Source of the DNA: Candidatus Roizmanbacteria bacterium
GTDB taxonomy: Bacteria > Patescibacteriota > Microgenomatia > UBA1406
Length of the DNA stretch: 8,412 bases
Direction: 5' to 3'
Assembly: GCA_024653645.1 (NCBI GenBank)
Contig: JANLHK010000003.1
Location: forward strand, 1 to 8,412
Part shown: one piece after another, positions 1-8,412 of the stretch
How positions within the stretch are numbered: the stretch's first letter is position 1
How the letters are laid out: the number at the start of each line of letters is the position of its first letter
Made by a program: the position numbers and the translations under genes
Notes under the pieces: model-generated
What the model was told of the DNA's origin: nothing
Databases searched by the model: none
What the model saw: only the letters and a program-made list of their open reading frames with translations

Positions 1-177
1 GTAAAACTCTTGCTCAATTTTGCGCTTCTTATCCTTTGGTTCAATGCGGGCTACGCCACGGGCTATGCGCTTCCACATCTCTTGTGGTGTTTTCTCCACA
101 GGCTTACCATCTTTGTCCTTCACCGAATAACGATCCAAAAAAACCTTCTGAGAGATCCCATCTAAAGTCACTGCCAT
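1..177 (-). CDS. nrdJ: Adenosylcobalamin-dependent ribonucleotide reductase, N-terminal fragment
   Basis: Class II ribonucleotide reductase reduces ribonucleotides to deoxyribonucleotides with an adenosylcobalamin radical in the cytoplasm. Only the first 59 codons are present; the gene runs off the left edge. The visible part has the family's N-terminal pattern: a VFLDRY segment, a KDKDGKPVEKTPQEMW stretch (residues 18-33), then a basic RIARGVARIE helix. The ATG at 177 is the only sensible start, because an in-frame TGA lies four codons upstream. No Shine-Dalgarno sequence is visible. It lies 41 bp downstream of nrdR on the same strand, so the two probably share the NrdR-controlled transcript. 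The call rests on this short N-terminus plus the nrdR neighbour. A class I large subunit is less likely because these N-terminal phrases are typical of B12-dependent enzymes. None of the catalytic cysteines is in view. Confidence 0.82.
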   Translation of the reverse strand, partial: MAVTLDGISQKVFLDRYSVKDKDGKPVEKTPQEMWKRIARGVARIEPKDKKRKIEQEFY

Positions 178-218
178 AGCATTAAAAATTCAACTTATAA
201 TGGCCCGTTACACGCTCT

Positions 219-665
219 CTATAATAACTTTTTAAGCTCCCGCTCAAATTCCTCTACTTCTACAAAACGTTTGAACACTGACGCAAATCGAATGTAGGCT
301 ACTTTATCAATTTTTTTTAATTTTTGCGCAACTAAATTTCCGATAAATGAGCTCTGTATTTCCGTATTGTCCTGACGCCTCAGTTGCTCTTCAATCTCGT
401 CTGCCAACAGCTCAATTTGTACCCCCGTCACTTTTGTTTTTTCAAACGCCTTAATGATGCCCGACAGTAATTTTGAGCGATCGTACATATCGCGTCTACC
501 ATCACGCTTAATAACGACAATAGGTATCCGATCAACACGCTCATATGTCGTGTATCGTTTAGCGCATGAGCCGCATACCCGTCGACGACGCAACGCCGCT
601 CCATCCTCCGAAATGCGCGTCTCAACAACGTCGCTTTCTTGAAAACCGCAAAATGGGCATTTCAT
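219..665 (-). CDS. nrdR: Transcriptional repressor NrdR
   Basis: NrdR is a nucleotide-sensing repressor of ribonucleotide reductase genes that binds NrdR boxes when loaded with dATP/ATP. The 148-aa length is the usual one. An N-terminal zinc ribbon is complete, with C3 and C6 (CPFCG) and C31 and C34 (CGSC), followed by the conserved RRRR basic run at 26-29. An ATP-cone domain follows from about residue 49, opening with VIKRDGRR and YDRSKL. The family-typical segment VAYIRFASVFKRF lies near the C-terminus. The ATG at 665 gives the canonical MKCPFCG start. The gene sits between mrdA (stop 69 bp upstream) and the nrdJ start (41 bp downstream). A consensus-like promoter and a 16-bp NrdR-box palindrome lie directly upstream, so autoregulation together with nrdJ is expected. 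Confidence 0.97.
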   Translation of the reverse strand: MKCPFCGFQESDVVETRISEDGAALRRRRVCGSCAKRYTTYERVDRIPIVVIKRDGRRDMYDRSKLLSGIIKAFEKTKVTGVQIELLADEIEEQLRRQDNTEIQSSFIGNLVAQKLKKIDKVAYIRFASVFKRFVEVEEFERELKKLL

Positions 666-672
666 GTTAAAA

Positions 673-688
673 ACACTACTATTAGTGT
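673..688 (-). promoter_or_regulatory. NrdR box (operator) upstream of nrdR-nrdJ
   Basis: The minus-strand sequence ACACTAATAGTAGTGT is a palindrome with perfect 6-bp arms (ACACTA/TAGTGT) and a 4-bp centre. It matches the known NrdR box consensus acaCwAtATaTwGtgt at all arm positions, 12 of 16 overall; only the centre differs. It lies 8 bp before the nrdR ATG and downstream of the predicted -10 element, where bound NrdR would block transcription. NrdR boxes usually come as pairs about three helical turns apart; I see no second copy 31-32 bp to either side. Confidence 0.82.
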
Positions 689-699
689 GTCCCCTATTA

Positions 700-727
700 A
701 TTAAACCCTAAATGAAATCTTTGTCAA
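700..727 (-). promoter_or_regulatory. Sigma70-type promoter of nrdR-nrdJ
   Basis: On the minus strand a perfect -35 TTGACA (727-722) is followed after 16 bp by TTTAAT (705-700), a 5/6 match to the -10 consensus. The start site would fall near 693, giving a leader of roughly 28 nt that contains the NrdR box. The -35 lies only 7 bp after the mrdA stop codon, so nrdR-nrdJ is probably initiated here rather than only by read-through. Confidence 0.68.
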
Positions 728-734
728 GAGTATT

Positions 735-2258
735 TTATTGAGTAAAATAGACATCCAACACCGCTTTAGCAATGGGAGCAGCAACCGCTGAGCCTTCCCC
801 ACCGTGTTCCACCAATACCGTTATGGCAATGGTTGGATTGCCCGCAGGGGCGAATGCCGTAAACCAGGCGTGCGGGTCTTCTGTTTTTGCCGTGCTTTCG
901 GCTGTGCCTGTTTTACAGGCAACGCCAATTGATCGTCCTTGTACTTTGTAATTAAAAAACGGATAAGCCGTTCCACCGGTTGAACAGGCTGCACGCATAC
1001 CGGCACGTACCAACTGTAAATGCTCGGAGTTAAGCGAGTGTTGACTGCAGTCTAATTCCTGACCCTTTTCAAACACGTACGGGCACCAGGTACCGCCTGA
1101 GGCGATAAGGCTCGCCGATGAATGCACCTGCGTGGGACTGACTAATAAATATCCTTGGCCAATCGAAAGGTTGATGGTGTCGCCTAAATACCACTGTTCG
1201 CCAACGTGTTCACGCTTCCACGCATCATCAGGTAAGGTGGAGGGGGTTTGGGCAAAGAACGCATCCATGTCGGTTTTGTCATACCGAAACTGTTTGAGCC
1301 ACGATACTAATTTGTCTTCACCTCCCTGTATACCCAAGGTGTAGAAAAAAATATCGTTTGAACGGGCAATGGCTTTTTCCACATCAACCGATCCCTCTTT
1401 CCTACCATATTGCAGATAGTACCAATTACCAAATGAGGTGCCGCCTACTTCCAGTACACCGGTGTCTTCAACTATGGTGTATTCGTCAATCACCCCATCC
1501 TCAAGCGCACCAAGCGCATACATAGGTTTCACAACCGAACCCGGCGGGTAGGTACCGGATACCACACGGTTAAATAACGGCTGCAGGGGATCGGCGGCAT
1601 ATTCTCCATAGGCCCGTGGAGTATGAATAATGCGCTGCGGATCAAAGGCAGGAGATGAATAAAAAACCAGCACTTCGCCGGTAGTTGGATTGGTAGCCAA
1701 TACTGCTCCCTGTTTTCCCTTGAGCGCCCGCGCAGCAGCTTTTTGTAATTTCGTATCAAGCGTGAGATGAATGTCTTCACCTTTTTTGGGCTGCGTTACC
1801 GCCAAATCAACCTGCTCCTGCCCCTGCGCATTGGTCATGGCATAGCGCACCCCCGGTACACCTCTTAAACGACATTCATACATCCGTTCAAGGCCGTAGA
1901 CACCTACTAATTCATTTGATCGTGCTTTCACCGGACAGGTTCTGTCTTTTAAATTCTTATCACTGGGAAGACCCACATAGCCGATCACATGCGCATACAA
2001 TTCGTGATACGGATACTCACGCAAAAACGTATAGCGTTTGCTTTCGGTATTGGTGGTCAATAGTTCATTGTTGCGGTCATAGAACACACCCCGCGGCGCG
2101 GATATTTCTATCTGACGAATAGCATTGCTATCGGATAGGCGCTGGTAGTAGCTTGATGAAAAAACAGTTTTTTTAAGCAGCTCAACCACTAAAAAAGCGT
2201 AGGCTAATAGGATAATGCCAATTAAAATACGCGTGCGACCATCATAGAGCCCTTTCAT
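735..2258 (-). CDS. mrdA: Penicillin-binding protein 2 (peptidoglycan D,D-transpeptidase)
   Basis: This is a class B penicillin-binding protein that cross-links peptidoglycan at the outer face of the membrane. At 507 aa it is shorter than the roughly 600 residues common in model bacteria. One N-terminal membrane anchor spans about residues 11-29. The PBP-dimer region follows, with APRGVFYDRNN at 54-64 and the YGLE and RGVPG segments at 121-136. The transpeptidase domain carries all three active-site motifs: S241-V-V-K244, S300-N301-D302 and K449-T450-G451. SIGQG at 365-369 and HAWFTAFAP at 463-471 are typical of MrdA rather than FtsI. The ATG at 2258 precedes the anchor directly; no Shine-Dalgarno is visible. 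It lies 41 bp downstream of the recombinase-like gene on the same strand. An inverted repeat containing a TATACT -10-like hexamer lies just upstream. All catalytic residues are present, so it should be active. Confidence 0.94.
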   Translation of the reverse strand: MKGLYDGRTRILIGIILLAYAFLVVELLKKTVFSSSYYQRLSDSNAIRQIEISAPRGVFYDRNNELLTTNTESKRYTFLREYPYHELYAHVIGYVGLPSDKNLKDRTCPVKARSNELVGVYGLERMYECRLRGVPGVRYAMTNAQGQEQVDLAVTQPKKGEDIHLTLDTKLQKAAARALKGKQGAVLATNPTTGEVLVFYSSPAFDPQRIIHTPRAYGEYAADPLQPLFNRVVSGTYPPGSVVKPMYALGALEDGVIDEYTIVEDTGVLEVGGTSFGNWYYLQYGRKEGSVDVEKAIARSNDIFFYTLGIQGGEDKLVSWLKQFRYDKTDMDAFFAQTPSTLPDDAWKREHVGEQWYLGDTINLSIGQGYLLVSPTQVHSSASLIASGGTWCPYVFEKGQELDCSQHSLNSEHLQLVRAGMRAACSTGGTAYPFFNYKVQGRSIGVACKTGTAESTAKTEDPHAWFTAFAPAGNPTIAITVLVEHGGEGSAVAAPIAKAVLDVYFTQ

Positions 2259-2264
2259 ATGTAG

Positions 2265-2278
2265 GGGTAAGTATACCC
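2265..2278. repeat. Inverted repeat over the putative mrdA -10 region
   Basis: Five-bp perfect arms (GGGTA/TACCC) flank a 4-bp centre. Read on the minus strand, the repeat contains the -10-like hexamer TATACT (2275-2270), which ends 11 nt before the mrdA ATG. No good -35 hexamer is placed at 17 bp, so a promoter here is tentative. The repeat could equally be a small operator. The TTTGGGTATA string at its upstream edge recurs just before the 411-aa gene (5649-5658). Confidence 0.35.
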
Positions 2279-2299
2279 AAAAAAGCGAGGTAGAAAAGA

Positions 2300-3172
2300 T
2301 TAGAGCTCGTCTAAGCGGTAGCTTGAAGAAGGCTGTTCTGGTTTTACCAGATCGAGAAATGATTCAGTTGAAGACAAACGCTTATGACCCACTACTTTAG
2401 ATACATAGGCAATTGGGACACCCGCAGCCAGCTGGTGGGCAATAAAGGTATTGCGCAAATCGTTTACTTTCGCGTTTTCAATACCCACTTCCTTGAAGCA
2501 GCGGTCTACTACATTGCGAATATTGCGAATCAACAGTGGTTTTTTGTTCTTGGTGATGAACAAATGATCTTCCGTGTCAGTTTGGGGCCGCACGGTTAAA
2601 TATTCCTCGACCGAGGACTTAACCAGCTTATTCAGTTGAATTTCCCGGTTTTCATTTTTGCCATATTCGCGTACCACCAATACCTCACTTTTCATGTCCG
2701 ATAGTCTGATATTGGCCAGCTCTCCAATGCGGATGCCGGTCTGCAAGAACAACTCGATAATAGCGTAGGTTCGCTTGTCATTACGGGCATAATCGCGCAG
2801 TGCGCGGTATTCGAGTTTGCTTAAAATGCGGGGCTTGTTGTTCTCAAATCGGGGATGAGCAACATCAAGTGCCGGATTCACGGTCACGACGCTTTCACTT
2901 TTCAAAAATCGGTAAAAGGTTCTGATCGAATTAAGCTTTCGTGAGGCTGACTTTCGGGTATAACCGGTCGTAAGGAGTTCTTCAATAAATGACTGAATAT
3001 TCTCTTTTTTAACCTCTACAATAGCGCCCACTTGAACTTTAGCTAGGTACCCCAAAAATTGCTCTATATCCTTTTTATAGGCAACAATAGTGTAGCGAGA
3101 TTTGCCTTTGTCCTGTAGGTGTGCTATAAACTTATTCAGGTACTCACTGAATACAATATTATCCGTTTGCAT
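2300..3172 (-). CDS. XerC/XerD-like tyrosine recombinase family protein lacking the nucleophilic Tyr
   Basis: The protein has the two-domain layout of tyrosine recombinases: an N-terminal SAM-like core-binding domain (about residues 3-95 from the chosen start) and a C-terminal catalytic fold. Using numbering from the upstream in-frame ATG at 3208, R160 (TGIRIGEL) is Arg I, K184 fits the beta-hairpin lysine, R252 (DLR) is Arg II, and H275 (VVGHKRL) is the His/Trp position. The usual HxLRH motif reads N249-D-L-R252-N253. The nucleophile position, nine residues after H275, is F284 (TESF) instead of Tyr. It therefore looks unable to cleave DNA in the standard way. I start at 3172 (MQTDN, 290 aa) because the conserved domain begins there and a promoter overlaps the upstream alternative. 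It leads the minus-strand set with mrdA and diverges directly from the ftsB-like gene. An accessory DNA-binding role in chromosome segregation or division is inference only. Confidence 0.85.
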   Translation of the reverse strand: MQTDNIVFSEYLNKFIAHLQDKGKSRYTIVAYKKDIEQFLGYLAKVQVGAIVEVKKENIQSFIEELLTTGYTRKSASRKLNSIRTFYRFLKSESVVTVNPALDVAHPRFENNKPRILSKLEYRALRDYARNDKRTYAIIELFLQTGIRIGELANIRLSDMKSEVLVVREYGKNENREIQLNKLVKSSVEEYLTVRPQTDTEDHLFITKNKKPLLIRNIRNVVDRCFKEVGIENAKVNDLRNTFIAHQLAAGVPIAYVSKVVGHKRLSSTESFLDLVKPEQPSSSYRLDEL

Positions 3173-3550
3173 ATGGCCTATAATATCAAACCAAATAATA
3201 AAAAGCAATATACATTTTGGCCATTACTCTACGTTGTCTTCTTTTTCTTCGCCTCAACGCTGGCCGTCAGTATATTCCGACTCGGAAGCCAATATTATAC
3301 ACAGCGTCAAACGTTAGAGCAAAAAAAGAAAGAGGTGCAGGAGCAGCAAAAAGGAATCGAGCGCTACCAATTAATGATCAAACGTGCGCAAACCGATGAA
3401 TATATTGAGGAAGAAGCACGCCGGCTTGAGCTTGCCCGAGAAAATGAAACCGTGGTCGTGGGTGCATTTCCTACCCCGACTCCCAGCCCCACGCCGTTTG
3501 TTGACCGCACTCCCGTATACCGTCAATGGTACAATCTGTTTGAACCATGA
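3173..3550 (+). CDS. ftsB: Septum formation initiator family protein (FtsB/DivIC-like)
   Basis: FtsB/DivIC proteins are small bitopic membrane proteins that join FtsL and FtsQ/DivIB in the divisome. From the ATG at 3173 the product is 125 aa. It has a short cytoplasmic tail rich in Asn and Lys, one membrane segment at about residues 15-35, a Gln/Lys/Glu-rich coiled coil at about 40-70, then TDEYIEEEARRLELARENE at 74-92, the family's signature segment after the coiled coil. A PTPTPSPTP run (100-108) and an aromatic QWYNLF tail follow. An ATG at 3119 would add 18 residues but lies inside the recombinase-like gene and gives no family similarity. The stop overlaps the next start by ATGA, so translation is probably coupled to pduO. 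Family membership is supported; assignment to FtsB rather than FtsL is less certain. Confidence 0.82.
   Translation: MAYNIKPNNKKQYTFWPLLYVVFFFFASTLAVSIFRLGSQYYTQRQTLEQKKKEVQEQQKGIERYQLMIKRAQTDEYIEEEARRLELARENETVVVGAFPTPTPSPTPFVDRTPVYRQWYNLFEP
3180..3208 (-). promoter_or_regulatory. Promoter of the recombinase-like gene, likely leaderless
   Basis: On the minus strand TTGCTT (3208-3203) and TATTAT (3185-3180) are separated by exactly 17 bp. Only 7 nt lie between the -10 and the ATG at 3172, so transcription should begin at or next to the A of the start codon. The promoter lies inside the first codons of the divergent ftsB-like gene. It also argues against the upstream ATG at 3208, which would fall in the -35 element. 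Confidence 0.55.
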
Positions 3551-4044
3551 AAGTAACCACAAAAAAAGGCGATACCGGAACAACTACGCTCTTTAATCAG
3601 GCGGGCATACCAAAACATGATCCGCTTATTATGCTGATTGGCGAGAATGATGAGGTACAATCCTTCTTGGGTTTGCTCAAAACTACCCTCACAGAGCCTG
3701 TAATCCAAGCCTACCTGACCGATATACAACGTCACATCTATCAAATGATGGGAGAGCTTTCCCACGGCCCGGAGGTTCCCAGTAACCTACTGACACAATG
3801 GTTGACAGAACTTGAGGCACGCGAAGAAGTATTACTGACCCGTACCCCTATTGGCAACAAATTTATTATTCCGGGTGAAAACAAAACAGAAGCCTGGTGC
3901 CAGGTCGCCCGCACAGCAGTGCGCCGTTTAGAGCGCAACTACAGCCAGTACTCTGTCAATCATCCCGAGGTAAAAAGATTTATCCCCTACATTAACCGAC
4001 TTTCTGATTACCTGTTTATCCTGGGACGTTCCTATACGGTATGA
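3547..4044 (+). CDS. pduO: Cob(I)alamin adenosyltransferase, PduO type
   Basis: PduO-type enzymes transfer the adenosyl group of ATP to cob(I)alamin, making adenosylcobalamin in the cytoplasm. At 165 aa the protein is close to a single-domain PduO. The ATP-binding N-terminal motif TTKKGDTGTTTL lies at residues 4-15. An E-N-D-E segment at 33-36 corresponds to the usual DELN region. The conserved R126-R127-L-E129-R130 (RRxER) and N150-R151-L-S-D154-YLF (NRLSDxLF) motifs are intact. It overlaps the ftsB-like stop and the Nudix start by 4 bp each (ATGA), so it is the middle gene of an operon. No corrinoid synthesis gene is in the window. The likely consumer of its product is the B12-dependent ribonucleotide reductase at the left edge. 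Confidence 0.94.
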   Translation: MKVTTKKGDTGTTTLFNQAGIPKHDPLIMLIGENDEVQSFLGLLKTTLTEPVIQAYLTDIQRHIYQMMGELSHGPEVPSNLLTQWLTELEAREEVLLTRTPIGNKFIIPGENKTEAWCQVARTAVRRLERNYSQYSVNHPEVKRFIPYINRLSDYLFILGRSYTV

Positions 4045-4469
4045 GAATCGAAGTTTCAGCTGGTGGCATTGTATACAAAAAAACACCCCAAGGGCTACTC
4101 TGGCTGGTGGTGCAACACTCGTACCGCCATGATCATTGGGGATTCCCGAAAGGACATATCGGGGATATCCATAAGAACGAGCCCATAGAGGACGCTGCGC
4201 TACGGGAGGTTCGGGAAGAAGGCGGCATAGAAGCGCGAATTATAGCTCCAGTTTTACCTCCATCTCAGTATATCTATCGCTGGCAGGAGGAAATGATCAA
4301 CAAAAGCGTTCATTATTTTCTGATGGAATACGTGTCCGGCTCGACCGAAGACCATGATATCGAAATACAAGACGCACAGTTTTTGGATGCTGAAACCACC
4401 CTGAGCCGCTTGCGGTATAATAGTGATCGCCAGCAGTTCATAGCAGCACAGAAGCTCCTGCCGGAATAA
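4041..4469 (+). CDS. Nudix hydrolase
   Basis: Nudix enzymes hydrolyse nucleoside diphosphates linked to another group, using divalent metal bound by the Nudix helix. At 142 aa this is a single-domain member. The Nudix box is fully canonical, running from G41 through E47 to R55-E56-V-R-E59-E60-x-G62-I63, which fits GX5EX7REUXEEXGU. It is preceded by the usual GFPKGH segment (34-39). The N-terminal VSAGGIVYKK strand resembles small NUDT2/diadenosine-tetraphosphatase-like or MutT-like enzymes, but the substrate cannot be read from sequence. The start overlaps the pduO stop (ATGA). The TAA stop (4467-4469) is followed with no spacer by the first base of tRNA-Arg, so the mRNA end must be produced by tRNA processing or the transcript continues into the tRNAs. 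Confidence 0.93.
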   Translation: MRIEVSAGGIVYKKTPQGLLWLVVQHSYRHDHWGFPKGHIGDIHKNEPIEDAALREVREEGGIEARIIAPVLPPSQYIYRWQEEMINKSVHYFLMEYVSGSTEDHDIEIQDAQFLDAETTLSRLRYNSDRQQFIAAQKLLPE

Positions 4470-4541
4470 GCTTCCTTAGTTCAATGGACAGAATGGCGGT
4501 TTCCGGAACCGCAGATGGGCGTTCGATTCGCCCAGGGAGCA
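4470..4541 (+). tRNA. tRNA-Arg (anticodon CCG)
   Basis: A complete 72-nt cloverleaf: acceptor GCTTCCT/AGGGAGC (one G-T pair), D-stem GTTC/GAAT, anticodon stem GCGGT/ACCGC around loop TTCCGGA, 4-nt variable loop, T-stem GGGCG/CGCCC with TTCGATT loop, discriminator A. The anticodon CCG reads the Arg codon CGG. CCA is not encoded. It begins at the base after the Nudix stop codon and is 4 nt from the next tRNA, so it is probably excised from the operon transcript. Confidence 0.95.
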
Positions 4542-4545
4542 CAGC

Positions 4546-4617
4546 GCATCTGTAGCTCAGTGGTAGAGCACCACTCTTATAAAGTGGGGGTCCTTGGTTC
4601 GATCCCAAGCAGATGCA
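4546..4617 (+). tRNA. tRNA-Ile (anticodon UAU)
   Basis: A 72-nt cloverleaf with perfect acceptor GCATCTG/CAGATGC, D-stem GCTC/GAGC, anticodon stem CCACT/AGTGG around loop CTTATAA, 5-nt variable loop, T-stem CTTGG/CCAAG, discriminator A. The loop has U33 followed by UAU, which reads the Ile codon AUA. Most bacteria read AUA with a CAU tRNA whose C34 is converted to lysidine, so a genuine UAU isoacceptor is uncommon. CCA is not encoded. It ends 7 bp before the 3' end of the convergent HTH gene, with no visible terminator between. Confidence 0.93.
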
Positions 4618-4624
4618 CTCTTGT

Positions 4625-4846
4625 TCAGAGATTGCCTTCAAGAAGATCCACGATACTCACTCGAAGCGCCCGGGCAATGCGCTGCAATACTCGCAAGGTA
4701 GGGTTGGCTTTCCCTTGCTCTATGCGGCTCATGTAGGTTCGGTCCACTGCTGACACAAACGACAATTCCTCCTGTGATATGCGCTTCTTTTTACGCAATG
4801 CGGCTACGGTACTGCCCACTTTGCCATGCCAACCTCTTAATGACAT
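4625..4846 (-). CDS. Small Xre-family HTH transcriptional regulator
   Basis: A 73-aa protein made almost entirely of one Cro/C1-type helix-turn-helix domain (about residues 10-69). The pattern is VAALRKKKRISQEEL (14-28), a recognition region SAVDRTYMSRIEQGKANP (32-49), then TLRVLQRIARALRVSIVDLL (50-69). The RTYMSRIEQGK region is like that of the controller (C) proteins of restriction-modification systems and other short Xre repressors; no restriction or modification gene is present here. It is divergent from the 204-aa gene across 104 bp rich in palindromes, one of which sits in its own promoter, so autoregulation is likely. Its stop is 7 bp from the 3' end of the convergent tRNA-Ile. The target and biological role are unknown. 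Confidence 0.9.
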   Translation of the reverse strand: MSLRGWHGKVGSTVAALRKKKRISQEELSFVSAVDRTYMSRIEQGKANPTLRVLQRIARALRVSIVDLLEGNL

Positions 4847-4870
4847 AGGCCTAATACACCATATTGATAT

Positions 4871-4898
4871 ATCATAATCTACAGACTATAGTCTACAA
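4871..4898 (-). promoter_or_regulatory. Promoter of the HTH regulator with internal palindromic operator
   Basis: On the minus strand TTGTAG (4898-4893) and TATGAT (4876-4871, 5/6 match) are separated by 16 bp. The spacer holds most of the perfect 12-bp palindrome AGACTATAGTCT (4883-4894). A second perfect palindrome, TGATATATCA (4865-4874), overlaps the -10. The regulator could bind either and repress itself. The GACT..AGTC half-sites resemble the C-boxes of restriction-modification controllers, although the central spacing is 2 bp here rather than the usual 3. Confidence 0.5.
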
Positions 4899-4924
4899 TA
4901 AATGTAAATAAATACTTACAATTT

Positions 4925-4944
4925 TTGTATAGCTGGTATACAAT
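4925..4944 (+). promoter_or_regulatory. Inverted repeat and -10 of the 204-aa gene
   Basis: Perfect 7-bp arms TTGTATA (4925-4931) and TATACAA (4937-4943) surround GCTGG. The right arm contains the -10 candidate TACAAT (4939-4944), and a TG precedes the overlapping TATACA. Only 6 nt separate TACAAT from the ATG at 4951, predicting an essentially leaderless transcript. A weak -35 (CTTACA, 4915-4920) lies 16 bp from TATACA. The repeat could be an operator for the divergent HTH protein, but its sequence differs from the palindromes nearer that gene. Confidence 0.45.
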
Positions 4945-4950
4945 CCTGAT

Positions 4951-5565
4951 ATGAACCAATCTGTCTATGGACATATCGCCCAACAACACCATGCGGTAGG
5001 CATACTCAAACTGGCAACCGGCACACTCAATAACGAAATTGGCCTATTCAGAGAGCGAGTACGCTATTATCAACCATTTGCGTTTGGTGCCGTACGTGAC
5101 CATAACTTAAAACTGTATAAACAACTCCTTGATATATATTTCACGGTTCCCTACACCAGCTTCAGCGTTTTCTATCATGAAAAGAGTTATTCCCTTGGTC
5201 AACTCATAGCCAATAGCCTTAACAAACAAGAAAATATGGTTGTATTTGTATCGTCTCAATACCACAATTCTGCTCATCGCTATTCAGAAGAGGACACAAG
5301 AGAGATGGTTAAAAGAAAGATGCGTCGTGATGCACTTTTTGGTATTCATCCTGTCAGTATCCGCGATTCAAGCGAGTTACAAATGGCGCAGGTATTGTTA
5401 GGTATTGTGTCACACGCTGTTTCACTGCTTGATACAGATCCGATTACTAAAAATGCGAAGTTTAGATTAGTTAAGCATCTACAGCGCCACCTCAATACTG
5501 ATAAGCTGGCACGCACCAACGAGTATTATCTGCGCTTTAAGCGGCGCTTTGCTGTAGAGCTGTAA
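4951..5565 (+). CDS. Uncharacterised protein, DUF3800-like without the acidic residues
   Basis: I do not recognise a characterised homologue. The 204-aa protein is soluble, with no signal peptide or membrane segment. Two stretches resemble DUF3800 proteins, an RNase-H-like family often seen in phage and defence contexts: HNLKLYKQLLDIYF with SFSVFYHEKSY (51-64, 70-80), and VSIRDSSELQMAQVLLGIVSHA (135-156), which parallels the family's DSK...LQLADLLLGAI end. The family's N-terminal D-E-S strand is missing, and the Asp expected in LQxAD is Q147, so a catalytic role looks doubtful. The C-terminus (166-204) is basic. The ATG at 4951 sits right after a promoter-like inverted repeat. No earlier start can restore the missing strand, because the upstream 104 bp is promoter-like. 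The divergent HTH gene is a plausible regulator. The family link is tentative. Confidence 0.6.
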   Translation: MNQSVYGHIAQQHHAVGILKLATGTLNNEIGLFRERVRYYQPFAFGAVRDHNLKLYKQLLDIYFTVPYTSFSVFYHEKSYSLGQLIANSLNKQENMVVFVSSQYHNSAHRYSEEDTREMVKRKMRRDALFGIHPVSIRDSSELQMAQVLLGIVSHAVSLLDTDPITKNAKFRLVKHLQRHLNTDKLARTNEYYLRFKRRFAVEL

Positions 5566-5577
5566 AAAAACAGCCGT

Positions 5578-5611
5578 ATGGGTGACAACTGCCAGCAAAG
5601 GGCAAACCCAT
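5578..5611 (+). terminator. Possible stem-loop after the 204-aa gene
   Basis: ATGGGT (5578-5583) can pair with ACCCAT (5606-5611), and inside it TGCC (5590-5593) can pair with GGCA (5601-5604). This gives a two-part hairpin 12 bp after the stop codon. No U-tract follows, so it is not a classical intrinsic terminator; it might be a processing or attenuation structure. An 8-bp direct repeat ACAACTGC lies at 5585-5592 and 5613-5620. Confidence 0.3.
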
Positions 5612-5654
5612 AACAACTGCTTATTAAAACTATACCACACCGCAATTGTTTGGG

Positions 5655-5674
5655 TATAGAATACTGATTCTATA
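5655..5674. repeat. Perfect inverted repeat touching the start codon of the 411-aa gene
   Basis: Arms TATAGAAT (5655-5662) and ATTCTATA (5667-5674) are perfect over 8 bp around ACTG, and the last base is the A of the ATG. It includes -10-like hexamers TAGAAT and AATACT, so it could be an operator over the promoter, or an RNA hairpin masking the start codon. A second pair, CTATACC (5630-5636) and GGTATAG (5653-5659), overlaps the left arm and could form an alternative pairing. Confidence 0.55.
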
Positions 5675-6909
5675 TGGAATCTATTCCCAGCGATATTCAA
5701 CAGGACATAGAAGGCGTATCAGAGCGGATTAACCAGTATATCCATGAGCTACGCGCCGTTGATATGGTTGTGATTACGCTTGCCTGCTCGGACAGTCGTG
5801 TCGTATTGCCCAGTAACCAAGTACTCGTACCTATGAAGAATGGGATTCAAAAACGCGTTATGTTTATGGGCATACCCACCATAGGAGGAGGCTCGCCGAG
5901 CCGTTCCCGATTGCGGGGCATTATTAAAACCCTCAAAGCCTGGGGTGTTGCCAAAGATCACATCAATATATTGGTTACCCAGCATGGAGATACCTCTGAA
6001 ATTTCTGCCGCTCTTGCCAAAACTTCCGGCCATATATCATGCGGGCTACGAACTTTTTTTAACCAACATAAAGGTGAACTGGAGGATATTCGCGAGTTGC
6101 TAATTGCCTGGTCACGGCAGTATAAACAAACTGTGAATGATCCGCGGGCTGCTCCCGACCGTTTGGCTCTAGAGACTATTGCCCATGAATGTCCCGAGGT
6201 TATGGATCTTATTAACACACTGCATACTCAGACCGGCATGCCACGCCGATTGCTCCTGCGGGCAGCCTATCGCAATGGCTCATTTGACATACACGGGAAT
6301 GAGCTTGAAATCATGGACAAAGTAGCCGAATATATTGCAGATGAAGAAAACAAGGATATATTCCCGACCTGCGCCATCGGTGCGGCATACTATGATCACC
6401 AACTAAAAAAGCTGCATTTTGCCCTTCCCTATGCCGATATCGGATTTAAAAATAAAACCTTAACCTTTACTAACCTTCCTCCCCGGCACGACAGTATTCA
6501 AAATCCACAGAATGTCATTGTTTCACTTGGTGAAGAGGTTATTTGCATACACAAAGAGGTTATACTTCCCAATATCGTAAAATCGGCACCCGACAACCTG
6601 TTTCGCTCATGTGCCTCAATTCCAACCGTTCCTACTATATTGTGCGCCCTGTCGGAATCTTTTTATGCTGTAGTGCATAAGGTTAATCCACACCCCGACA
6701 ATGCCAATTTTTCGGCCCTTAAACGCGTTATTGCCCTATGCGATACCCAAACACATGTGAAAGTACTACAGGAAGCATTACTCAGCGACGAATTCAAAAA
6801 AGATTATCGGGATACTTTTCTAAAACTCAATAAAGGGGTTATTTTTGTTGTTAACCTAAACCGAAATTCACCCCATACCGCACCTACCTGCCAACCGCTT
6901 GCGCTATAG
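5674..6909 (+). CDS. Large uncharacterised protein with beta-carbonic-anhydrase-like N-terminal motifs
   Basis: I do not recognise the full-length family. Residues about 30-125 resemble a beta-carbonic anhydrase core: a strand VVITLA ending in C38-S-D40-S-R42 (the CxDxR zinc and Asp/Arg dyad motif), a helix with LKAWGV (87-92), then the strand INILVTQ. Where HxxC is expected the sequence is H104-G-D-T107, without the Cys. A GH120-I-S-C123-G motif, the exact GHxxCG pattern, follows 16 residues later. Zinc could be bound by C38 plus H120/C123 with an insertion, or the site could be degenerate. Beta-carbonic anhydrases are about 200 aa; this protein adds roughly 280 residues of no recognised domain. 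No signal peptide or clear membrane segment is visible. The ATG at 5674 overlaps a perfect inverted repeat. Its stop abuts the stop of the convergent VOC gene. Enzymatic function is unproven. Confidence 0.75.
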   Translation: MESIPSDIQQDIEGVSERINQYIHELRAVDMVVITLACSDSRVVLPSNQVLVPMKNGIQKRVMFMGIPTIGGGSPSRSRLRGIIKTLKAWGVAKDHINILVTQHGDTSEISAALAKTSGHISCGLRTFFNQHKGELEDIRELLIAWSRQYKQTVNDPRAAPDRLALETIAHECPEVMDLINTLHTQTGMPRRLLLRAAYRNGSFDIHGNELEIMDKVAEYIADEENKDIFPTCAIGAAYYDHQLKKLHFALPYADIGFKNKTLTFTNLPPRHDSIQNPQNVIVSLGEEVICIHKEVILPNIVKSAPDNLFRSCASIPTVPTILCALSESFYAVVHKVNPHPDNANFSALKRVIALCDTQTHVKVLQEALLSDEFKKDYRDTFLKLNKGVIFVVNLNRNSPHTAPTCQPLAL

Positions 6910-7284
6910 TGCAGCGTACAGATCAATCCTATATCCATCGGGGTCTTCCACTATGGCATAACGCTGTCCCCAAAATGCATCCCACGGCTCACGCACCACT
7001 TTGCCTTTTGCATTAAATACTGCCTCAACCACTCTATCTACTTCTTCAGGGCTGTCGTACTCAATGGCAAACGAAGAGTGGTTACCCGGCTGCGGATCTT
7101 GTCCAATTATTTCCTTTACCACGTTTTTTGCATCAATCATAAGCCGTGCTGATTTATCGGGTGTAAACGGCTCAAGGTGTTGCTCGTCGTCCTTTAACTC
7201 CGAAAAGGTAAAACCCAACAAGCTATAAAAACTCACGGTTTTTTTCATATCGCTGCTGGTTACCCCCACCGCATTAAGTTTCAT
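6904..7284 (-). CDS. VOC superfamily protein (glyoxalase/bleomycin-resistance-like)
   Basis: A 126-aa protein with the paired beta-alpha-beta-beta-beta layout of the vicinal oxygen chelate fold. The first half opens with LNAVGVTSSDMKKTVSFYSLLGF (3-25), the second with SFAIEYDSPEEVDRVV (71-86). It ends with the hallmark DPDGYRIDLY (114-123). Metal-ligand positions look atypical: the first-strand His is A5 and the terminal Glu is D121, so glyoxalase-type catalysis is not assured. Ligand binding or an unknown lyase/dioxygenase-type role is possible. It lies 12 bp downstream of the pentapeptide gene on the same strand. A TAGAAT hexamer (7296-7291) ends 6 nt before its ATG and could support a leaderless internal transcript. 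Its final Leu-stop codons overlap those of the convergent 411-aa gene in CTATAG. Confidence 0.9.
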   Translation of the reverse strand: MKLNAVGVTSSDMKKTVSFYSLLGFTFSELKDDEQHLEPFTPDKSARLMIDAKNVVKEIIGQDPQPGNHSSFAIEYDSPEEVDRVVEAVFNAKGKVVREPWDAFWGQRYAIVEDPDGYRIDLYAAL

Positions 7285-7296
7285 ATCTTTATTCTA

Positions 7297-7878
7297 CTAA
7301 ACCGTTTCAATAATAATATCAAGGCTGTCTAATAACGACAAAGCCTCCGGCAAAGCAAAACGGGCTTTTTTAATCGTATTACTTCGAGCGTCAATCAAAT
7401 AATTTTTTGCACCTACCAAATTTGCTTTGGTGAGATTGGTTTTAGAAAAAATACTTCTTTCAAAGTCAGTATTGGTTAACTCACTATTGCTGAGGTTTGT
7501 TTCAACAAAATCAACCTCTTTTGCTTCACAATCAACCATCTTCGTTTTTGGTAACTTGAGCATTCTAAAATTTGAGTAATTAATCTGGCACTCCTTAAAG
7601 CTTAAATTTTGAACTTGTTGTGCTTTTGTCCAATCGATTCCAATAACCTTGCTGTCAACAAAGCTTACATCAATAAAATGGCAATTAGTAGGGAGAACCG
7701 CGCTGAGCATGCACTCTTGAAATACACAGTGAATGAACTTGCACTGCAAAAACGTACTATTTACAAAACTGCATCTGTTGAATGTGCAATCCTCAAATTC
7801 TATCTCCCTAATGTTTTGTCTGGATAGTGAAAGTTTAGAAAAGGTGTTTTTAAAATAATCGTCCTGATTAAAGACCAT
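7297..7878 (-). CDS. Pentapeptide-repeat protein, Qnr/McbG-like
   Basis: Tandem A(D/N)LXX-like pentapeptides form a right-handed quadrilateral beta-helix. From the ATG at 7878 the protein is 193 aa. A first block runs over about residues 25-80 (FEDCTFNRCSFVNSTFLQCKF...), a break follows around IDWTKAQ (81-87), and a second block covers about 88-158 (...VDFVETNLSNSELTNTDFERS...). It ends with a helical tail ARFALPEALSLLDSLDIII (172-190), like the dimerising C-terminus of Qnr and McbG, which protect DNA gyrase from quinolones or microcin B17 by mimicking DNA. Longer reading to 7944 would translate through tRNA-Gly, so I reject it. The gene starts 16 bp after that tRNA and is probably on the same transcript. 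Overall architecture fits gyrase protection, but the loop residues that decide this cannot be judged here. Confidence 0.88.
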   Translation of the reverse strand: MVFNQDDYFKNTFSKLSLSRQNIREIEFEDCTFNRCSFVNSTFLQCKFIHCVFQECMLSAVLPTNCHFIDVSFVDSKVIGIDWTKAQQVQNLSFKECQINYSNFRMLKLPKTKMVDCEAKEVDFVETNLSNSELTNTDFERSIFSKTNLTKANLVGAKNYLIDARSNTIKKARFALPEALSLLDSLDIIIETV

Positions 7879-7894
7879 ATATGAGCTATCCGTG

Positions 7895-7966
7895 AGCGGC
7901 GGACGGGAATTGAACCCGCGACCTTCTCCTTGGCAAGGAGACATTCTACCGCTGAACTACCGCCGC
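7895..7966 (-). tRNA. tRNA-Gly (anticodon GCC)
   Basis: A 72-nt cloverleaf on the minus strand: acceptor GCGGCGG/CCGCCGC, D-stem GTTC/GAAT, anticodon stem TCTCC/GGAGA around loop TTGCCAA, T-stem GCGGG/CCCGT with TTCAATT loop, discriminator U, which suits glycine tRNAs. CCA is not encoded. It lies 13 nt downstream of tRNA-Phe and 16 nt upstream of the pentapeptide-repeat gene. Confidence 0.96.
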
Positions 7967-7979
7967 GCTTTATGCACTG

Positions 7980-8052
7980 TGCAGAGGGTCAGAATCGAAC
8001 TGACATCTGAGGTTTTTCAGACCCCCGCCGTGACCGCCTTGGCTACCTCTGC
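7980..8052 (-). tRNA. tRNA-Phe (anticodon GAA)
   Basis: A 73-nt cloverleaf on the minus strand: acceptor GCAGAGG/CCTCTGC, anticodon stem GGGGT/ACCTC (one G-U pair) around loop CTGAAAA, 4-nt variable loop, T-stem GTCAG/CTGAC, discriminator A. The D-arm GCC...GGC closes with only three pairs and an A-C at the fourth position, reminiscent of tRNA-Cys/Leu D-arms rather than the usual GCTC/GAGC of tRNA-Phe. The anticodon GAA is nevertheless clear. CCA is not encoded. It starts 17 nt after the uppP stop. Confidence 0.9.
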
Positions 8053-8069
8053 GCTCTGCTTACGGATTG

Positions 8070-8412
8070 TCATTTTAACATATTAACCCCAGGCAACGCA
8101 TACAGAGAAACCAAAATCCCTATACCCAACGCAATCCGGTATACCGCAAAGCTAACTAATCTGTTTTTTTGCAGAAAAGCCAACAGCCAACGAACTACGA
8201 TGTACGCTGTTACAAATGAAGTTATAAACCCTATAGCAACATACATCATTTCGCTGCCTGTCAGTGCAATGCCCGACTTAAGCAAATCGTATCCCGACGC
8301 TGCTGCAATGGTAGGTACAGCCAATAAAAACGAGAATAGTGCCATATCGGCACGCCGGTACCCCAGCGCCATACCCGCTACAAATACTATCCCTGACCGC
8401 GACACACCCGGA
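8070..8412 (-). CDS. uppP: Undecaprenyl-diphosphatase UppP/BacA, C-terminal part
   Basis: UppP is a multi-pass membrane enzyme that dephosphorylates undecaprenyl diphosphate, recycling the lipid carrier of peptidoglycan synthesis and giving intrinsic bacitracin resistance. Only the C-terminal part is present (114 codons including stop); the gene enters from the right edge. It begins inside the PGxSRSG catalytic motif (P-G-V-S-R-S-G at the window end). Family-typical segments follow: RADMALFSFLLAVPTI, then hydrophobic membrane spans, then AIGFITSFVTAYIVVRWLLAFL and AVYRIALGIGILVSL. The GTG at 8405 lies inside the motif and is not the true start. It is upstream of and co-directional with tRNA-Phe, tRNA-Gly and the pentapeptide gene. 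Together with PBP2 and the FtsB-like protein it marks the region as rich in cell-envelope genes. Confidence 0.95.
   Translation of the reverse strand, partial: PGVSRSGIVFVAGMALGYRRADMALFSFLLAVPTIAAASGYDLLKSGIALTGSEMMYVAIGFITSFVTAYIVVRWLLAFLQKNRLVSFAVYRIALGIGILVSLYALPGVNMLK

Follow-up and report, generated by a model that had tools for sequence, protein, structure and literature searches.

A predicted two-lobe, one-zinc relative of the beta-carbonic anhydrases in Candidatus Roizmanbacteria

The stretch of DNA analysed here (the window, 8,412 nucleotides; contig JANLHK010000003.1, positions 1 to 8,412) comes from a small Candidatus Roizmanbacteria genome (GCA_024653645.1; 806 kb, 133 contigs) and carries an ATG-initiated open reading frame (ORF) for a 411-residue protein, whose family, F1, is predicted to consist of two fused carbonic anhydrase (CA)-like lobes (Table 1). 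A first-pass annotation, made from the sequence alone, had given this frame and the positions of C38, D40, R42, H104, H120 and C123, and translation agrees with it (...LACSDSRVVLP...ILVTQHGDTSEISAALAKTSGHISCGLRTFF...). The gene is real and under purifying selection, with a ratio of nonsynonymous to synonymous substitution rates (dN/dS) of 0.10 against the relative in another Roizmanbacteria locus, L003, and of 0.11 and 0.09 for two nearby genes. Scanned whole against Pfam and NCBIfam, the protein has no match, the sole Pfam row being DUF2990 (E 0.043), under its cut-off. A database search at E <= 10 returned 27 relatives, the weakest at E 4.4e-47, and a second round using the alignment added one more (P0028). 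Alignment A1, to which counts of 27 rows refer, holds the window protein and 26 relatives, with identity down to 32% and 44 invariant columns; left out was P0025, a 250-residue fragment that also carries CCDSR, TQH and CGLR.

F1 is rare. Counts that include the window's own genome are 2 of 3 genomes at family rank, 2 of 83 at order rank, 1 of 373 at class rank and 1 of 379 at phylum rank; a single other genome of the genus was searched, and it too has the gene, on a 5,295-base contig. The own genome gives no match to the Pfam beta-CA model (Pro_CA, PF00484), while 9 of 14 control genomes do. A viral origin was considered and rejected, there being no F1 or F2 relative in viral contigs (F2 is a sister family described below), no viral fold at E <= 1e-3 and no PHROG at E <= 0.1; a defence role for F1 itself was likewise set aside, with no PADLOC match at E <= 0.1.

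Table 1. The F1 gene and the predicted features of its product, in window coordinates
Feature	Position	Strand	Basis
Gene for 411-residue fused two-lobe CA-like protein (family F1)	5674..6909	+	ORF, relatives, structure model, dN/dS
N-terminal lobe, residues 1-250: predicted beta-CA fold, complete predicted metal site	5674..6423	+	Structure model, profile comparison; boundary approximate
CSDSR (residues 38-42), with C38 as predicted zinc ligand and D40-R42 as dyad	5785..5799	+	C, D, R 27/27; structural register
H104, predicted zinc ligand, end of strand 97-105	5983..5985	+	27/27
Insertion between H104 and C123, 18 residues, with unconserved H120	5986..6039	+	14-29 residues across F1
C123, predicted third zinc ligand	6040..6042	+	27/27
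C-terminal lobe (263-411), predicted to be a degenerate beta-CA lobe lacking a metal site	6460..6906	+	Profile and structural comparison; boundary approximate
Q276-N-P278: likely the partner-lent Gln of beta-CA (E. coli Q33), CsoSCA His397	6499..6507	+	Q, P 27/27
Residues 285-289, place of lost CxDxR	6526..6540	+	285 F (21) or L (6); 287 mixed, D 1/27; 289 never R
F310, likely the partner-lent Phe (E. coli F61, Coccomyxa Phe-66')	6601..6603	+	27/27
Y331 and H335, likely Coccomyxa Tyr-88' and His-92'	6664..6678	+	27/27, four apart
T358, place of lost His ligand	6745..6747	+	S/N/D/T, never H

The first-pass annotation had proposed a CA-like core and called for structure prediction and HMM-HMM comparison, and both support that part of it. 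The AlphaFold2 model of the F1 protein (mean confidence score, pLDDT, of 94) is predicted to have a beta-CA fold, and beta-CAs fill ranks 1-36 of the second structural comparison made with it. Compared as profiles, F1 and a set of 13 classical beta-CAs (E. coli Can and 12 plasmid-borne proteins, out of 60 listed of 141 records) match at E 1.9e-5, with 0.13 for the reversed control, and this direct link is accompanied by one through the sister family. PF00484 shows a match in just one of 27 members (E 0.39, under the gathering score), a single-sequence search of the PDB found nothing relevant, and neither did the F1 profile (best E 0.0018), whose best PDB rows we take, by their names, to be designed coiled coils. 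By fold, by ligand set and dyad, and by sequence relationship, we predict that F1 belongs to the beta-CA superfamily.

Within the first lobe, C38, D40, S41, R42, H104, C123 and G124 are invariant, whereas H120, in GHISCG, is His in only 8 of 27 rows. The same annotation had read GHISCG as a relocated HxxC motif, and here we part from it: since H104 and C123 are kept in every row and H120 is not, the usual His and Cys are both retained, separated by a loop whose length varies (18 residues in ten rows and 20-24 in another fifteen, with single rows at 14 and 29). In the structural comparison C38 coincides with the zinc Cys in 10 rows out of the 12 whose residue number is known, the others being 1i6o (off by four) and 2a8c (off by one); 13 of 32 single-domain rows were checked in this way, assuming a gap-free run from the start of the matched range to the residue, and the zinc Cys numbers used in this and the following register are presumed ones, apart from those of the E. 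coli and Coccomyxa enzymes. The predicted zinc ligands of F1 are C38, H104 and C123, with D40-R42 as the dyad. The place nine residues ahead of the Cys (residue 29), where a beta-CA has its Gln, is Ala, Ser or Val in F1. Seven arginines are invariant (R42, R79, R126, R192, R196, R200 and R271).

The assignment of the His and Cys ligands depends on the sister family, F2, because it bridges F1 to the classical beta-CAs. The Pfam beta-CA model, run against 281 genomes of the class, gave 13 matches, none over the cut-off; one of these and a neighbour of another became the founders of F2 (388 and 396 residues), which align with each other over 392 columns at 25% identity (E 3e-27). Their two-sequence profile finds matches in 19 of 373 class genomes. 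Among the 18 full proteins of the resulting alignment (A3, one fragment left out), C59, D61, R63, H104 and C119 are invariant, and the Pfam model is seen in three (best E 6.4e-4). In the wider phylum 3 of 361 genomes matched, of which the third, at L054 (E 8.6e-4), was taken as false; its stretch shows two other long ORFs, presumably polyprenyl-synthase-like and hydrolase-like. F2 matches the 13 classical beta-CAs at E 5.8e-10, and its profile against PDB sequences has 1ddz as its top row (E 1.8e-4), with CAs in 25 of 28 rows (four at E <= 0.0024, the rest at 0.09-2.1), the other three comprising a cyclohydrolase and two entries for EscV. Of five alignments printed, four extend to the CGG, with a gap between it and the His; in the fifth, 1ddz, the Cys is reached in one of two stretches, with the same gap. 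In three F2 members the His-Cys spacing is plain or nearly so, at two to three residues (HFDC in L029 and L032, HEPVC in L033).

Compared as whole proteins, F1 and F2 in turn match across the C lobe (E 3.9e-9; reversed controls 0.61 and 0.62); taken separately, their N lobes match at E 3.5e-7 and their C lobes at E 2.6e-7, and the N-lobe comparison places C38, D40, R42, H104 and C123 on their F2 counterparts. It is important to note that a direct alignment of the F1 N-lobe core with beta-CAs puts H104 on the His and does not place C123 on the beta-CA Cys, a point against our main reading.

About 280 C-terminal residues had seemed at first pass to match nothing, a view that no longer holds: by prediction they comprise the rest of the first lobe and a degenerate CA lobe, and a fold unlike any known is rejected, as the structural comparisons match beta-CA. 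The metal residues are missing from this second lobe, which in 27 rows has no Cys, Arg or His at places 285, 289 and 358 respectively (places 285, 287, 289 and 358 being set by offset from Q276 and strand ends). What it does keep resembles the other half of a beta-CA active site. Type I beta-CAs, as described in PMC3230598, combine an Asp-Arg dyad with a hydrogen-bond donor, Gln-38', and with wall residues including Phe-66', Tyr-88' and His-92', where we take the primes to denote the neighbouring subunit. In F1, Q276, F310, Y331 and H335 are each invariant, and the step of four from Y331 to H335 is that from Tyr-88 to His-92. The same positions in the 13 beta-CAs hold Gln in 13, Phe in 13 and Tyr in 11 (Phe in two), with His four past the Tyr in two; those of F2 hold Gln in 15 of 18 (His in two, Ile in one), Phe in 16, Tyr in 16 (Phe in two) and His in 11.

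Fourteen beta-CA rows begin between model residues 16 and 23, and the structural register of Q276 was read in 13 of them, again assuming no gaps: six Haemophilus influenzae rows place it on residue 33, 1ym3 and two Can2 rows place it nine ahead of the presumed zinc Cys, and two rows of CsoSCA place it on His397. Against this agreement, 2a5v is off by two and 9s4g gave no reading. A forced global hhalign comparison of the C lobes with beta-CA produced no usable alignment. The alignment shows that two complementary residue sets, each invariant in 27 rows, lie in different halves of the protein; the fold of both lobes, and the reading of the second as a degenerate CA lobe, are predictions from the model.

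We consider it probable that F1 is a tandem beta-CA-type enzyme in which the N-terminal lobe binds one zinc, the C-terminal lobe completes the site, and CO2 is hydrated to bicarbonate. The zinc would be held by C38, H104 and C123 (Cys2His plus water), with D40 kept by R42 in the type I state that leaves the metal accessible. The C-terminal lobe, lacking the Cys and His ligands, would lend Q276, F310, Y331 and H335 to the single active site, such that a pseudo-dimer stands in for the homodimer usual in beta-CAs and a chain would have a single working site, not two. The H104-C123 loop, 14-29 residues long, would border the site and may regulate entry to it.

The same fold and zinc site could instead serve another small-molecule reaction, such as hydrolysis of carbonyl sulfide or carbon disulfide or another hydration. 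A beta-CA relative with such a reaction does exist, the carbonyl sulfide hydrolase 3vqj found in the search with E. coli Can, and the seven invariant arginines seem to us more than a plain beta-CA needs, a judgement made with no count on beta-CAs. We nevertheless think this alternative unlikely, given that the dyad and the type I pocket positions (Gln', Phe' and Tyr') are kept as in CO2-hydrating beta-CAs, and favour CO2 hydration over the reaction of the related hydrolase with the same ligands. The number of invariant residues beyond the metal site, among 44 invariant columns overall, might likewise suggest a metal-binding, non-catalytic sensor or regulator, in which the fold binds bicarbonate or a phosphorylated ligand; with metal-side and partner-side positions both kept in all 27 rows, we rate this as distinctly improbable. 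That a CxDxR/H/C motif arose by chance in an unrelated fold with no CA ancestry would fit the lack of a Pfam match and of anything relevant in the single-sequence and F1-profile PDB searches, and is largely refuted by the predicted structure, the profile links with their reversed controls and the F2 bridge, leaving it a negligible prospect.

The predicted tandem, one-zinc arrangement is closest in anatomy to CsoSCA (2fgy, 9g4t, 8thm), which likewise has two fused beta-CA lobes, one zinc site and a degenerate second lobe, and which is the known precedent for a one-site pseudo-dimer. Its zinc ligands, according to PMC12646314, are Cys173, His242 and Cys253, so that its His and Cys, too, are set apart, by ten residues; moreover, CsoSCA His397 is the position where the partner-lent Q276 of F1 falls. 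F1 differs in that the lent position holds Gln instead of His, the loop from His to Cys is longer and varies in length, and an N-terminal hook or oligomerisation domain is missing, with just 30 residues ahead of the first strand in the model; 'non-cso' CsoSCA relatives are also described, in PMC11086599, as shorter and without the hook. Despite the similar anatomy we do not file F1 under CsoSCA, because PF08936, PF20686 and PF20687 match none of 27 members and hhalign against an alignment of 120 CsoSCA proteins gives E 0.23. In the own genome the only PF08936 row is on another contig (E 0.057); rows of this kind also turn up in 3 of 14 control genomes, none over the cut-off. No carboxysome genes were recognised in the window or L003, where only some ORFs were scanned, the whole genome being unsearched for shell genes.

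Classical single-domain beta-CAs (PF00484; E. coli Can, Coccomyxa CA) share with F1 the CxDxR, the His and Cys ligands, the dyad and the pocket Gln, Phe and Tyr. F1 is unlike them in being a fused pseudo-dimer with one site, in its H-x14-29-C spacing versus HxxC, and in lying under Pfam detection; neither the HxxC spacing nor the two metal sites of curated Pro_CA occur in any of the 27 rows. In the tandem beta-CA of Porphyridium purpureum (1ddz) both repeats match the CxDxR...H part of the F2 profile, whereas F1 has its predicted metal site in the first lobe only. The zeta (cadmium) CA CDCA1 (3bob) also separates its H and C (HGDHSSDMLGCGFF), reminiscent of HGDT...ISCGLRTFF in F1, and one repeat of it is speculated, in PMC4413181, to mimic a beta-CA dimer, one lobe carrying the metal and the other most of the substrate residues. 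Membership of the zeta class by sequence is rejected, with no PF18484 match in 27 F1 members and E 0.051 by hhalign against a two-sequence profile of CDCA-like proteins; CDCA is not among the structure matches listed for the F1 model, which neither shows nor excludes a CDCA fold. It is tempting to speculate that Patescibacteria evolved their own one-site fused pseudo-dimer CA, independently of the carboxysome enzyme, and that the variable His-Cys loop and invariant arginines make it ligand-gated or Zn/Cd-exchanging, as in the diatom cadmium enzymes, though we hold this to be rather doubtful.

Pro_CA_2 (PF20393, 'putative carbonic anhydrase') shares CxDxR with F1 and F2 and has its own HxxC, and such genes adjoin F2 genes; unlike F1 it is a single domain of 120-160 residues. 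The F2 N lobe matches an alignment of ten Pro_CA_2-type neighbours at E 5.8e-5, and F1 compared with the same ten gives E 0.029. A small CxDxR/HxxC gene (121-162 residues) stands head-to-head with the F2 gene in 10 of 18 loci (L018, L021, L023, L025, L027, L029, L031, L032, L033 and L034), a count biased by L018, which was found through its neighbour; the two such proteins scanned match PF20393 at E 1.6e-32 and 3.4e-18. No small gene of this kind lies in the window or L003, and one Pro_CA_2-type protein searched in the window's genome gave no match, in a search without a positive control.

Other divergent CA-like genes came to light in passing. A 205-residue protein from a genome of the same class (L013:2009-2623, minus strand) matches the cadmium CA repeat (PF18484 E 1.8e-14; 3bob E 1.5e-16), suggesting from its sequence a zeta-CA-like gene in bacteria; the 3.3-kb locus also holds a small CxDxR gene. 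A weaker cadmium-CA-like case is at L008:1909-2592 (plus strand, E 0.051). A 270-residue protein at a locus edge (L016:2-811, minus strand) contains CSDSR and HQTECNITTGCG, matches nothing in Pfam at E <= 1 and possibly represents another divergent CA-like family.

L003 keeps the window's gene order of cobalamin adenosyltransferase, NUDIX, a 204-residue gene, F1 and a glyoxalase-like gene, with other ORFs between; its genes were named by likeness to those of the window, and part of the glyoxalase-like gene was masked. Among 80 genomes of the order, the 204-residue gene ahead of F1 (4951-5565, plus strand) occurs only in the two that carry F1. It matches the PADLOC candidate PDC-M04A (E 9.6e-9) and phrog_3732 (E 6.2e-10) and, weakly, a ThsB TIR-like model (E 0.011), with two weak rows in the PDB, the better a portal protein (E 0.043). 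Other window genes we take to encode NrdR, a penicillin-binding protein, a tyrosine recombinase and UppP. A pentapeptide-repeat protein (PF13599, E 1.9e-22) is encoded at 7297-7944 on the minus strand, and the first start codon of its ORF overlaps a tRNA-Gly gene at 7894-7966.

We found no description of the F1 family in the titles and opening abstract lines of papers on CA in Patescibacteria, Microgenomates and the candidate phyla radiation, or in passages of PMC8217296, and no work joining CA, the candidate phyla radiation and CsoSCA. Surveys of beta-CA based on PF00484 would miss F1, judging from the 27 members scanned, and those based on COG0288, such as that of IMG genomes in PMC13098186, would likely miss it too. 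None of the 281 genomes scanned from the window's class has Pro_CA over the curated cut-off, yet 19 of 373 carry F2. If our reading of F1 as a tandem, one-zinc CA is true, the family would be a clean example from nature of duplicated lobes that degenerated in complementary ways, with the metal half kept in one lobe and the substrate half in the other, and could be set beside CsoSCA to compare how that enzyme came to lose its second site.
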